A DNA stretch of 46,521 nucleotides, taken from an uncultured Cryomorphaceae bacterium. GTDB taxonomy: Bacteria; Bacteroidota; Bacteroidia; Flavobacteriales_D; Parvicellaceae. Positions 27,638-46,521 of this stretch are shown here, in pieces. The stretch spans positions 1-46,521 of the forward strand of contig CAMZLL010000197.1 of assembly GCA_947311505.1 (NCBI GenBank). The letters run 5' to 3'. The notes beneath the pieces are model-generated. The model was not told the DNA's origin, ran no database searches, and was given only the letters and a program-made list of their open reading frames with translations. A program made the position numbers and the translations under genes. The first letter of the stretch is position 1; every line of letters starts with the position of its first letter.

Positions 27638-30600
27638 TTATATCTTGCTCTTCAGTTCCCAGCCTCCAATTTTATAAACCCAAAGTTTGAATCGATACAA
27701 CAAATAATACATAACAGGTATGGCAACTAACGTTAAGAACGTGGCAAATGTCAGCCCATAAATAATTGCCTCACTCATAGGTCCAAAGAATATAGCGTTA
27801 TCTCCTCCAAAGAAAATCTTAGGGTCAAAATCAGTGAAAAGGGAGAAAAAGTCAATATTCATTCCAGTAGCCAAAGGCATCAAACCAAGTATAGTGGTTA
27901 TGGCTGTTAGTAAAACTGGGCGAAGTCGTGTTTGTCCACCTGTAATGATAGCGTCTTTTACCTCTTGTATTGATAGTTGTTGGTTTTCATCCATTCCATT
28001 GGCTTCTTTCTTTCGAGTTCTCAATAGGTTGGTGTAGTCAATCAAAACAATAGCATTGTTTACCACAATACCAGCGAGAGAGATGATACCAATCATAGTC
28101 ATCATTATCACAAAAGGATTTCGGGTAATAACAATACCCAAAAACACTCCTGCTAGACTCAATACTACTGAAAATAGTATTATAGCTGGTGTCGAAAATG
28201 AATTGAATTGCGCTACTATGATAAGGAGAATTAAAAATACGGCTACCAAAAGTGCAGACGATAAGAATGCCATTTCTTTTTCTTGATCTTCCATTTGACC
28301 TGTAAATTTAAATTTGACACCTTTGTTTTTAAACGGTCTCCAAGCGTCAGAATTTTCATAGGTAAGCATCTTGTTTTTTAGTTTTGTTACCAATGCTGTG
28401 GCATTAGCATTTTCAGAAACTCCCGCAAATGCGACTACGATATTGTCTAGGTTTTTTCGTTTAATGGATGTGTTTTTATATACGATACTGTACTTATCAA
28501 CAACCGATGCAATAGGAATGGTCAAATGTTGCCCTCTATTGTTCATAAACATTATTTTTTGATTCAAAATGGCATCGATATCTCCTCTGAATTCTTTTCC
28601 AAATCGTACATTCAAATCATAGATTTCATCGTTTAATTCAAAAGTGGAAATATCTTTACCAAATAATGCAGTACGTACGGTAGATGCCACTTGTCCGTAG
28701 CTCATTCCAGCAGTACGTATCTTTGTTCTATCTAGTTTTATGTTAAATTCAGCCTTGCTGGTTTTTACATCTGTATCTACTTTTTGAACCCCTTCTACAG
28801 CGAGTTCGTTGAGGTGTTTTTTGATGGCGGTAGCCGCATCTACTAAATCTGTATATTCATCCGAACCGGTAACTTCAATATAGATTGGGGCTTTGCTTGG
28901 AGGTCCATTAGGCTCTTTGTCAACTGTTATTCTAAGGTCGGCAATGTTTCCTTTCCATGCTGCAAGTTTTTCTTCTACTTTTTGTTTGATAACACTGGTG
29001 TTTACCCCTTTTCGATGCGAAAATTCACTAAACGAAAGTGTGATACGAGATTTGTGGGGAGTCTCTCCAAACGCTGGTCCTGCCATAGGGTCGGAGGTTC
29101 CTTTACCTACTTGCTCTATCACAGAGGCTATTAGTTTCACGGTGTCGAAATAAACGTTGCCGTTTTCGTCTTTTTTCTTATCCAGGTTGTAAACTTCATT
29201 GTAATTATAATGTTCTCCCATTCCCCATGCGTATTCTTGAAGGTCAGTGAGAGGATCTTCTACATTGTCTCGTGTTTCATTGAGTACCGCATCTACTAAT
29301 GCTTTTACTTCCATAGTGGTTTTATTGGTTACTGCTATGTCAGTTCCTTTGGGATGTTCTATAAATACATTGATGTAGTTGGGTTGATTGTTGGGAAAAA
29401 ATTCAACCTTTGTTGGGAATGTTCCTATCAATACAAAAGACAAAACTAGAATTGCAATCGATCCTAAAAATACCCATATAGGTCGCTTCCCTTTCATGAC
29501 ACTAGTTAAGAATGTTTTATATTTTCCCTCTAACCAAGGCAGAAAAGTTTCTTGAAATTTTATAGAAAGTGGAAACAATACAAAGGCATTTAGCAAAGCT
29601 AATAACCCTATAATCATGAAGATGTTACCCCACCCGAACCAGCTCATGCCATAGAACAAAAAGGAGATTATAATACCAACAGAAGCTATAATGAAAACTT
29701 TGATTTTCTTTGGAGCTTTAGCTTCTACTCGCATCATAACGGCTGTAAGCACGGGGTTTATAACCAATGCTACAAATAAAGATGATCCAAGTACAATCAT
29801 TAATGTAATAGGTAAGTACTGCATGAATTCGCCCATTATACCAGGCCACATAGCTAAAGGAACAAATGCTGCTAAGGTAGTGGCTGTGGAAGCTATGATT
29901 GGCCATGCAACTTCGCCTACACCTTTTTTTGCCGCAGTGATGCCGTCCATACCTTCATCCATCAGTCGATATACGTTTTCTACTACTACAATACCATTGT
30001 CAACCAGCATTCCCAATGCAAGAATTAATGAGAATAAAACCATAATATTGAGCGTGACCCCGGCAGCATGTAAGAGCATAAAACTCATAAACATAGATAA
30101 CGGAATTGCCACACCTACAAAAAGTGCATTTCGTAAGCCTAAGAAAAACAACAAAACACCCACCACAAGAATAACCCCAAAAATGATGGAGTTTTCGAGG
30201 TTGCTGACTTGCGACCTGATCTGATTGGATTGGTCATTGGTCAGTGTTACATTCATACCTCTCAATTTTCCATCTTCCTGTGCTGTTCGTACGATTTCTT
30301 TTACCTCATCTATTGCGTTGATAATGTTTGCTCCTGATCGTTTTTTTACATCTATCATTACCACGGAAGTGTTGGATTGCCTCGCAAAACTTGTTGTGTC
30401 GGTATCTCCAAAAGAAACGGTTGCTACTTCATATAGATAGACATCTTTTTGTCCTTCGTGCTTTACAACTACATTCCTAATATCATCCAAACCTTTAAAT
30501 TTCCCCTCAAACATTACGAAATGGTCGATTCCGTCAATTTTAAGATTGCCAGCACCTACATTGATGTTTTCTTGTTGAATAGCTCTCTCTATGTCGTTGA

Positions 30601-44141: not shown

Positions 44142-44585
44142 TTACCGTTTCTTTCTAAAAAAAGAAATCATCAAGTCTTTACATTCTTCTGCGAGGATAC
44201 CACTAATCACTTCTGTAGTTGGGTGGAGGACGTTTTCTGTAAGTCGTTTGTAGCCTCTTCGTTCGTCTGATGCTCCATACACAATCTTGCCTATTCGAGT
44301 CCAAAAGGAAGCGCCTGCACACATCACACATGGTTCTAAAGTAACATAGAGAGTGCATTTGTCCAAATATTTATTGTCTATAAATTCTGTGGCCGAAGTA
44401 AAGGCTTGCATCTCTGCATGTGCTGTGAAATCAGTTAACCTTTCTGTTAAGTTGTGTGTGCGAGCAATTATTATTTTATTCAATACTATTACACATCCTA
44501 CGGGTACTTCATCTTTTTCAAAAGCCGTTTTTGCTTCCAAAAGAGCCTGTTTCATAAAATATTCGTCATTATATGGGTCAATCAT
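44142..44585 (-). CDS. tadA: tRNA-specific adenosine deaminase-like nucleoside deaminase
   Basis: A 147-residue zinc deaminase that converts A34 to inosine in tRNA-Arg(ACG). The active site is HAE (His56, Glu58) with the second zinc motif PCVMCAGA (Cys86, Cys89). The start YMKQALLEAKTAFEKDEVPVG is typical of TadA. A guanine-deaminase-like relative is the alternative, but the VGASDERRGY-like segment (YGASDERRGYKRL) favours the TadA group. It is cytosolic, and divergent from rlmH by 66 bp. Confidence 0.88.
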   Translation of the reverse strand: MIDPYNDEYFMKQALLEAKTAFEKDEVPVGCVIVLNKIIIARTHNLTERLTDFTAHAEMQAFTSATEFIDNKYLDKCTLYVTLEPCVMCAGASFWTRIGKIVYGASDERRGYKRLTENVLHPTTEVISGILAEECKDLMISFFRKKR

Positions 44586-44651: not shown

Positions 44652-45125
44652 ATGAAAGTAACCTTTATCGTAGTTGGAAAAACCGTGAAGTCCTATCTTA
44701 TAGAGGCTGAAAAAGAATATGAAAAACGACTCAAACATTACATTCGTTTTGAAGAAATCATAATTCCCGAACTCAAAAAAGTATCTAAACTAACAGAATC
44801 AGAGATTAAGGTTAAAGAAGGAAAGTTGATTCTTTCTAAATTATCCAATAGCGATGACTTGGTGTTGCTAGATGAAGGAGGAAAGGAATATGATTCTGTC
44901 GCTTTTTCCAAAAGAATGGAGAAGTTTGCAGTATCAGGAGCTAGAAATGTTGTTTTTGTAGTTGGTGGTGCGTATGGATTTTCTGACGAAGTTTATAATC
45001 GAGCGCAGCAAAAAATAGCATTGTCTAAAATGACGTTTTCTCATCAAATGGTACGTATGATCTTTAAAGAACAATTATACAGAGCATACACCATCCTCAA
45101 AGGTGAACCGTATCATCATAGATAG
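44652..45125 (+). CDS. rlmH: 23S rRNA (pseudouridine1915-N3)-methyltransferase RlmH
   Basis: A 157-residue SPOUT methyltransferase. The start MKVTFIVVGKTVKSYLIEAEKEYEKRLKHYI and the knot region VFVVGGAYGFSDEVYNRAQQKIALSKMTFSHQMVRMIFKEQLYRAYTI are diagnostic. It ends GEPYHH(R). It methylates pseudouridine 1915 in helix 69 of 23S rRNA as a homodimer. In staphylococci the 3' end of rlmH is the SCC attachment site. Here an AT-rich unknown gene follows 453 bp later. Confidence 0.97.
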   Translation: MKVTFIVVGKTVKSYLIEAEKEYEKRLKHYIRFEEIIIPELKKVSKLTESEIKVKEGKLILSKLSNSDDLVLLDEGGKEYDSVAFSKRMEKFAVSGARNVVFVVGGAYGFSDEVYNRAQQKIALSKMTFSHQMVRMIFKEQLYRAYTILKGEPYHHR

Positions 45126-45578
45126 ATGATAGATGATGTGCAACCCTCGGTATTCAATAAATAATTATGCTTATCCGTTACTTTCCCCAATAAAAAACGA
45201 AGACCGTAAATATTTTACGTTGTGCGTTTTTAACTTTGTATCTGATGTTACGCATGAAAATAGTAATTAAGCTATATTTCTTAGTTTATTTGTTGATATC
45301 TCATCCAATTTCTCCCATGCTGCTTTTGCAGCTTCTATCCACATTAGATTTTTCATTGCATAATGATTTTTGATTTTGAGTCGCTCTATTTTAACAAAAG
45401 TAATCATAGATGCTGTGAAATGGACTTGTTGTGTTTTTGTTTTTTTGATAAAAATTTAGACAATAATTTTTCAGGTGGATTAGGACTTAAATATAGGGTA
45501 AAATAGATGAAATCAACCAAATAATAAAGAAATTTATTATATTGTGAAAATTGTTGTAAAAAAAAACAACATAAATAA
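45126..45578. other. Intergenic region beyond rlmH
   Basis: A 453-bp AT-rich gap. It contains short tandem TAGATGA units just past rlmH, a small palindrome (CGTAAATATTTTACG, near 45206-45220) and a minus-strand 46-codon ORF. I see no tRNA, clear promoter or transposon end. The sequence becomes strongly AT-rich toward 45500. Confidence 0.5.
45267..45407 (-). CDS. Small ORF or gene remnant (46 codons), uncertain
   Basis: Reads MITFVKIERLKIKNHYAMKN followed by a helical LMWIEAAKAAWEKLDEIS segment and ends TNKLRNIA, then TAA. It is charged and amphipathic, with W/A-rich helix content that is unlike random AT-rich sequence. It could be a real small protein or the tail of a decayed gene. No family was recognised. 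Confidence 0.25.
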   Translation of the reverse strand: MITFVKIERLKIKNHYAMKNLMWIEAAKAAWEKLDEISTNKLRNIA

Positions 45579-46521
45579 ATGGAACAAACTAACCTAAGTA
45601 ATCTTTTTGAAAAAGACGAAAAATTAAATTTAGATTTTAATTTTAAAAAAATGTTTTTAAATGGACATAAATACATACCTACTAGATCTAAAAAGCTAAT
45701 TTTTCCATTTTTAATTTTTATGCTCATTATTGGGTTGTTAGGAATTGTACAAATTATAAGTGATATTAATTCATTTATTAAATATGGGTATGGTTTAGGT
45801 ATAGTTTCTTTTTTACCAACAATATTAGTTTTAGGAATTTGTATTGTCATTTATATAGGTACTACGCATCATTGGTTTAAAAAAAATGAGCGAAAAGTAT
45901 TAAATAATATTTTTGCGCTTGGCATACTTAAAAGTCACCCCCAATTTAAATATAATGAAAATGCTAGAAAAAATCTTTATGTTTGGATGGATTCGCTTGT
46001 TAGTGCTAGGTTTTATATACCTGAAATTAAATTTGAATATCACTATAATTCAAAAAATATAAAAGTTTTTGTAGCTGATGTGGTTAGAACTGATCCAGGA
46101 ATAGCAAGTCCGTCTGGTGCAATATTTCGAGAACAATTTACAGCAATTTTTTTAAGTTTAAAAAGTTTAAAGTTTAATCAAACCAAATTACTTAAAACAG
46201 AAGATATTATTGCTTGGTTAAAATTAAACATTAGTATAAATATAAATGCCCTTAAAAATTATAAATTACGATTAAGAGCAATAGAACATTATATTATTAT
46301 TGAGTTTGATAATGAAATTGTTAATCCAAAAAATAAATTAATACTATTAGAATATTTACAAAAACAAATAGAAAATAATGAATCTAAAATGAAATCAACT
46401 AACAAAATAGAATTAGAAAACTATCAAAAAAAAGGAATGAATTTGGGTGAAATTATAAACGACATTCGTCAAAATTACACCCAAACTAAACCAATGCGTG
46501 GTTATGATTTTAAAACTGGAG
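45579..46521 (+). CDS. Unrecognised two-span membrane protein, incomplete at right edge
   Basis: The frame is open from the ATG at 45579 to the window end (314 codons), with no stop. A polar N-terminus (MEQTNLSNLFEKDEKLNLDF) is followed by two membrane segments (about 39-60 and 73-94), a polar HHWFKKNERK turn and a cytosolic or periplasmic domain. That domain has WMDSLVSARFYIPEIKFEYHY, TDPGIASPSGAIFREQF and a later coiled-coil-like KQIENNESKMKSTNK. The end contains NLGEIINDIRQNYTQTKP. I recognise no family. Base composition is far more AT-rich than the rest (46321-46380 has 8 G+C of 60), suggesting accessory or transferred DNA. Confidence 0.65.
   Translation, partial: MEQTNLSNLFEKDEKLNLDFNFKKMFLNGHKYIPTRSKKLIFPFLIFMLIIGLLGIVQIISDINSFIKYGYGLGIVSFLPTILVLGICIVIYIGTTHHWFKKNERKVLNNIFALGILKSHPQFKYNENARKNLYVWMDSLVSARFYIPEIKFEYHYNSKNIKVFVADVVRTDPGIASPSGAIFREQFTAIFLSLKSLKFNQTKLLKTEDIIAWLKLNISININALKNYKLRLRAIEHYIIIEFDNEIVNPKNKLILLEYLQKQIENNESKMKSTNKIELENYQKKGMNLGEIINDIRQNYTQTKPMRGYDFKTG

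Follow-up and report, generated by a model that had tools for sequence, protein, structure and literature searches.

The 3′ end of rlmH is a target of SCC and ECC cassettes in staphylococci and enterococci, as described in two papers (PMC4723332, PMC6222049). SCC and ECC attachment (att) sites bear the core TATCATAA and are used by CcrAB (PMC6222049); staphylococcal direct repeats encode the end of rlmH, followed by a stop (PMC4723332). Our literature search found no paper linking rlmH with genomic islands in Bacteroidetes. A preliminary description of the DNA analyzed here had proposed that an accessory island begins downstream of rlmH and had pointed to the staphylococcal precedent. The window, by which we mean the whole stretch of 46,521 bases, is the entire contig C197 of a draft genome that totals 2.70 Mb in 223 contigs and is 74.6% complete, so its edge at 46521 is an assembly edge. 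The island proposal held in part: accessory DNA does follow rlmH, in the form of two mobile-element remnants, an odd orphan gene and a changed gene neighborhood, but a staphylococcal-type SCC/rlmH attachment site is not supported, as the repeated 9-mers lie within codons and the core TATCATAA is absent there. The features at this end of the window are as follows.

44142-44585, minus strand: tadA-like deaminase gene (PF14437/PF00383), divergent from rlmH
44652-45125, plus strand: intact rlmH, 23S rRNA pseudouridine methyltransferase (Pfam SPOUT_MTase PF02590, 2.5e-52)
45115-45123, plus strand: first copy of ATCATAGAT, within codons for the conserved RlmH C-terminus
45167-45241, plus strand: remnant of an IS1595-family element, made up of its left end and leader; carries the palindrome CCGTAAATATTTTACG and lacks the transposase body (matches contigs C174 and C78)
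45242 to about 45437, minus strand: remnant of a second, transposase-like element that retains its 3′ end, with the terminus CTGATGTTACGCAT at 45242, and has lost its 5′ part (matches genome G035; weak IS701 tail)
45403-45411, plus strand: second copy of ATCATAGAT, within transposase-like codons (A-S-M-I-T on the minus strand)
45579-46520, plus strand: orphan ORF, cut off by the contig end, for a protein with two membrane spans and an alpha+beta part, all predicted (GC 23.9%)

We consider it likely that this region is an IS-scarred breakpoint, at which IS remnants, a rearranged rlmH and AT-rich DNA carrying an orphan gene have been joined. The two remnants, their junction and the altered neighborhood of rlmH are direct observations, and so is the fact that the last gene is an orphan of odd composition. 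The features named in the preliminary description were all recovered: the gap 3′ of rlmH (45126-45578) is AT-rich, with a GC content of 27.4% compared to 34.7% across the window; the small ORF remnant inside it is a minus-strand frame of 56 codons (45270-45437) resembling a transposase C-terminus; an ORF of low GC with two predicted hydrophobic spans leaves the window; and the 9-base repeat ATCATAGAT is present in both places.

As evidence of attachment, this repeat is weak. A third copy of ATCATAGAT occurs in the window at 28616. When the edge was resampled 5000 times with a first-order Markov model, at least one 9-mer shared with the last 13 bases of rlmH arose in 1.9% of cases, for an end chosen post hoc. 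The end of rlmH encodes the usual RlmH C-terminus (...EPYHHR), with YHH found in 19 of the 19 other loci printed (the frame-broken 20th being left out), whatever lies downstream. The core TATCATAA is located neither at the end of rlmH, which reads TATCATCATAGA, nor downstream of it, and its sole copy in the window is at 2742-2749 on the minus strand. PF07508, a domain of large serine recombinases and the sole serine-recombinase domain searched, had no match in the 74.6%-complete draft; in the control of this search, 3 of 14 genomes gave matches. PF00589 had four matches in the draft, three over the cut-off (C8, C97 and C107) and one below it (C53), none of which is on the window contig. The only downstream candidate for a second att copy is the 9-mer inside the transposase-like codons, and the far end of such an element would be beyond the contig. 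With the 9-mers lying in RlmH C-terminal and transposase-like codons and TATCATAA absent there, an attachment site at the end of rlmH was rejected. A site-specific integrative island, SCC-like or otherwise, whose left att would be the rlmH 3′ end and whose cargo would start with the orphan, is very improbable in our judgment. It would be in keeping with the known SCC and ECC targets, with the existence of a direct repeat and with the accessory DNA that indeed follows rlmH, and is opposed by the recombinase searches of the incomplete draft, by the coding position of the second 9-mer and by the missing core. The first recognizable DNA past rlmH is also an IS remnant, though later IS insertions could mask an older island end.

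The neighborhood of rlmH was compared between this genome (G000) and its relatives. The gene gave a single match in its own genome in a search of the draft contigs, and was found in 21 of the 39 family genomes, this one included. A short imperfect ATAGATGAT repeat follows its stop (45105-45145) and possibly forms a weak hairpin (-7.2 kcal/mol). In 3/3 congeners, a lolC-like gene, rlmH and a polytopic membrane gene follow one another in the same direction; in this genome, the polytopic gene, a DUF1343/NamZ gene and lolC are on contig C16, without rlmH there. The pairing of tadA and rlmH is confined to this genome among 29 other tadA and 20 other rlmH loci, most of which were compared with no more than 1.5 kb of flanking DNA. 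The lolC and polytopic partners on C16, together with the unique tadA pairing, place rlmH at a rearranged point in this lineage, and we infer that rlmH moved, rather than its partners. Compared with G002 and G003, both the order and the orientation of the lolC-like and DUF1343/NamZ genes on C16 (L018, 1739-6752) are swapped, and this pair adjoins the polytopic membrane gene, which has no Pfam match and, by eye only, resembles an O-antigen polymerase. Upstream, nadC is found in divergent orientation in 13 of the 20 other rlmH loci, with an intervening gene in two of them (L032 and L035). In one family genome (G014:C12:156871-157339; L035, L036), rlmH seems frame-broken or mis-sequenced, giving two matches with in-frame stops.

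Downstream of rlmH, the polytopic gene recurs in 8 of the 20 other loci (the three congeners, L028, L030, L032, L033 and L034). A selection of ten proteins from eight loci was scanned for families, L019, L024-L027 and L035 being left out. Downstream genes encode an ABC-2 transporter with an ABC ATPase (L021), a GFO/IDH/MocA protein with a hexapeptide protein (L022), a NusG-like protein (L023), glycosyltransferases (L029 and L033) and a CarboxypepD_reg/TonB-plug-type protein (L020), and two scanned genes in L031 and L032 had no family match. These differences among relatives indicate that the site 3′ of rlmH is variable within the family and frequently has glycan-type genes next to it. Gene order at rlmH is not conserved, and the accessory reading withstood this comparison; at the same time, as the DNA 3′ of rlmH is naturally variable in the family, variation alone is no evidence for an SCC-like cassette.

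The first remnant was traced through its copies in the same genome. The 75 bp at 45167-45241 are 92% identical to sequences in C174 and C78, and shorter matches occur in C107 (83% over 47 bases) and C221 (85% over 40). When the own genome was searched with 44652-46521, at least four other places were found, all matching within 45167-45241 only; 40 of the 129 first-look candidates were scored, which bounds the count of IS1595 end copies. Among the same 40 of 129 candidates, the last 900 bases of the window had no match elsewhere in the genome. The copy in C174 leads into a 312-aa transposase (L013:62-1000, minus strand) that passes the IS1595 cut-offs (NCBIfam NF033547, 1.7e-51; Pfam PF12762, 1.1e-19, and PF12760, 1.3e-7). 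The window sequence can be assigned to the IS1595 family by this terminal sequence, shared with a copy that carries the IS1595 transposase; both ends and an intact transposase are not found together at 45167-45241. Similarity halts at 45241, and the element is called a remnant for this reason. Contig C78 ends within its IS1595 copy and C174 starts 61 bases past the transposase stop; contigs often end at repeats in draft assemblies.

A CCGTAAANNNTTTACG(G) palindrome followed by a promoter-like end, TAAnTTTGTA, recurs at window 45204-45220, L013:1041-1056, L014:8495-8510 and L016:1103-1119. This motif is common to the IS1595 leader copies and to the region upstream of an unrelated C221 gene, a 187-aa frame with no Pfam match whose neighbors are, by eye, O-methyltransferase-like and 3-hydroxyacyl-CoA-dehydrogenase-like; possibly it serves as a common operator. 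Viral contigs had no matches to the promoter-like leader pattern. On C107 (L015, 603-1813 and 1891-1937, both minus strand), another IS1595-like leader, a degenerate one, is directly followed by a tyrosine-recombinase gene that seems to be broken into two frames.

Likeness to C174 and C78 ends at 45241, and the shared sequence of the second element begins at 45242; its other limit, 45437, is approximate. This second remnant carries the last 56 codons of the minus-strand frame at 45270-45437. A 104-bp alignment (45236-45339) pairs it at 92% identity with the end of contig C324 in genome G035, where the shared part is preceded by unrelated DNA and the contig breaks within the element. Between the two genomes, rlmH is identical at 324 of 474 DNA positions (68%), so the two copies of this stretch resemble each other much more closely than the rlmH genes do, which would be expected for a mobile element. 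The 56-aa frame, 20 of whose last 23 residues are shared with G035, was found (E ≤ 0.001) in G000 and G035 only among the 39 family genomes. The terminus DNA pattern had one match in genome_contigs, that same G035 contig, and a shorter terminus pattern had none in viral contigs. The peptide had no match in plasmids and no other copy in its own genome (one match, 2/2 candidates scored). An Arsenophonus plasmid matched over 35 bp (E 0.003); this match and lesser alignments alongside the G035 match (E 0.006-0.08) were dropped as AT-rich chance. Against the IS701 profile NF049921, the 56-aa frame aligned weakly at positions 272-316 of 318 (E 0.015), and this short remnant, at 14.7 bits, does not pass the family cut-off of 250. 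IS701-like transposases matched in 41 of 399 order genomes, the own genome included (C30, which is frame-broken, and C64), with none over the cut-off. The remnant tail had no significant match among 30 IS701-like loci (C30 included, C64 left out), and no intact copy of the second element was found. The sequence thus hints weakly at a transposase-derived remnant, candidate IS701-like.

The orphan ORF spans 314 codons up to the window end with no stop, the contig breaking off 942 bases into it. Its frame length is not due to chance (P ~9e-15 at its own base composition). Among 35 window ORFs, chosen by eye as likely genes from 67 listed, it ranks last in both GC (23.9%) and GC3 (13%; z = -5.0 compared to the other 34). 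The spans were predicted from 19-residue Kyte-Doolittle windows above 1.6, starting at residues 36-49 and 69-82, and the lysine-rich flanks, judged by eye, would place both termini inside the cell, a topology that is itself predicted. No significant match was found in Pfam or NCBIfam; hits to Pfam CD20 (0.029) and IL12 (0.054) and to NCBIfam EncB (0.13) were all under cut-offs and were dropped. The protein, as cut by the contig end, matched 0 PADLOC anti-phage defense models and 0 PHROGs phage families at E ≤ 1, no solved structure at E ≤ 10 and nothing in plasmids or phages at E ≤ 0.01. Back-translated patterns, a method that detects close relatives only, gave none in genome_contigs or viral_contigs.

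The last gene is far from universal in its family: it was detected in 0 of 38 other family genomes and in 0 of 394 others from the phylum (E ≤ 0.001), and its accessory status was upheld in this respect as well. Across the order, matches at E ≤ 0.1 (best 0.001) came from 34 of 398 other genomes, compared to about 40 expected by chance; two were in the own family (G003 and G021) and several contain stops, and these matches were dropped because their count is no higher than chance. The family, phylum and order samples partly overlap in genomes. AlphaFold2 models made without an alignment had a pLDDT of 49.8 for the whole protein and 50.2 for residues 101-314. Both low-confidence models order the soluble part as strand-strand-strand-helix-strand-strand-helix, which we take as a hint only, and a Foldseek search of the whole-protein model (pLDDT 49.8) against PDB, with 0 matches at E ≤ 0.001, is considered meaningless. 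The putative role that we consider most likely for the product is that of an accessory protein anchored in the membrane and belonging to a mobile or strain-specific AT-rich segment, and the gene was probably acquired horizontally.

In the IS-scarred breakpoint that we favor, rlmH would have been parted from its congener-type partners and come to lie beside tadA in this lineage. An IS1595-family element would have occupied the DNA just downstream of rlmH, and a second element would have come to abut its leader at 45242, most simply by insertion there. Most of both elements would later have been lost through deletion or recombination, and this loss would have joined AT-rich DNA at about 45440, starting with the lineage-specific orphan gene for a predicted inner-membrane two-span hairpin with its soluble part inside the cell. 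We infer this order of events, as well as IS recombination as the cause of the rearrangement. Certain points count against a scar: the tentative transposase call for the second remnant comes from a weak profile tail (E 0.015) and a repeat-like spread; about 140 bp of AT-rich DNA (~45438-45578) between that remnant and the orphan are unassigned; and low GC and missing homologs are also common in fast-evolving resident genes. In a partly compatible account, possible but rather unlikely, the orphan is the first gene of a resident AT-rich cluster at a variable, often surface-glycan-bordered site. The recurrence of the polytopic gene downstream of rlmH in 8/20 other loci would fit such a cluster, as would the transporter, GFO/IDH/MocA with hexapeptide, NusG-like and glycosyltransferase genes of further loci; against it, the equivalent polytopic gene of this genome is on another contig, C16, and the orphan does not match any glycan family.

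We regard as unlikely a chimeric join near the second remnant, in which case the orphan would not be beside rlmH, or not be from this organism. The peptide of the second remnant is single-copy in the genome, leaving no obvious repeat for misjoining, while a misassembly would agree with the fragmented state of the draft (223 contigs), with the abrupt shift in GC to 24% next to a repeat-like element and with the end of the contig 942 bases into the ORF. Also unlikely, to a similar degree, is an undescribed AT-rich island, mobile or for defense, that starts with the orphan gene, entered via the IS scar by rlmH and continues past the contig end. On present evidence, the accessory junction is real but ordinary, and is not recognizably an SCC-like island. 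The tempting reading of an rlmH island outside Firmicutes is better explained here by IS remnants and rearrangement, and for strain-specific AT-rich genes it is ordinary to lack, as this orphan does, any relative in the searched collections.

Compared to known systems, the locus shows partial likenesses. DUF3137 comprises two-span membrane proteins with a cytoplasmic alpha+beta domain, and the general layout of the orphan is presumably similar; Pfam did not list DUF3137 for the orphan at E ≤ 1. With IS701-family elements, the likeness is the alignment of the C-terminal profile end to the 56-aa remnant, which is far below the cut-off and of which no complete copy was seen. With IS1595-family elements, which have an ISXO2-like transposase, the window shares the 75-bp left end seen in the copies of this genome, although that left end stands alone, without a transposase body. 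The likeness to the SCC and ECC cassettes at rlmH is that accessory DNA follows rlmH here; instead of a PF07508 match in the draft or TATCATAA at or after rlmH, this locus has IS remnants directly downstream.
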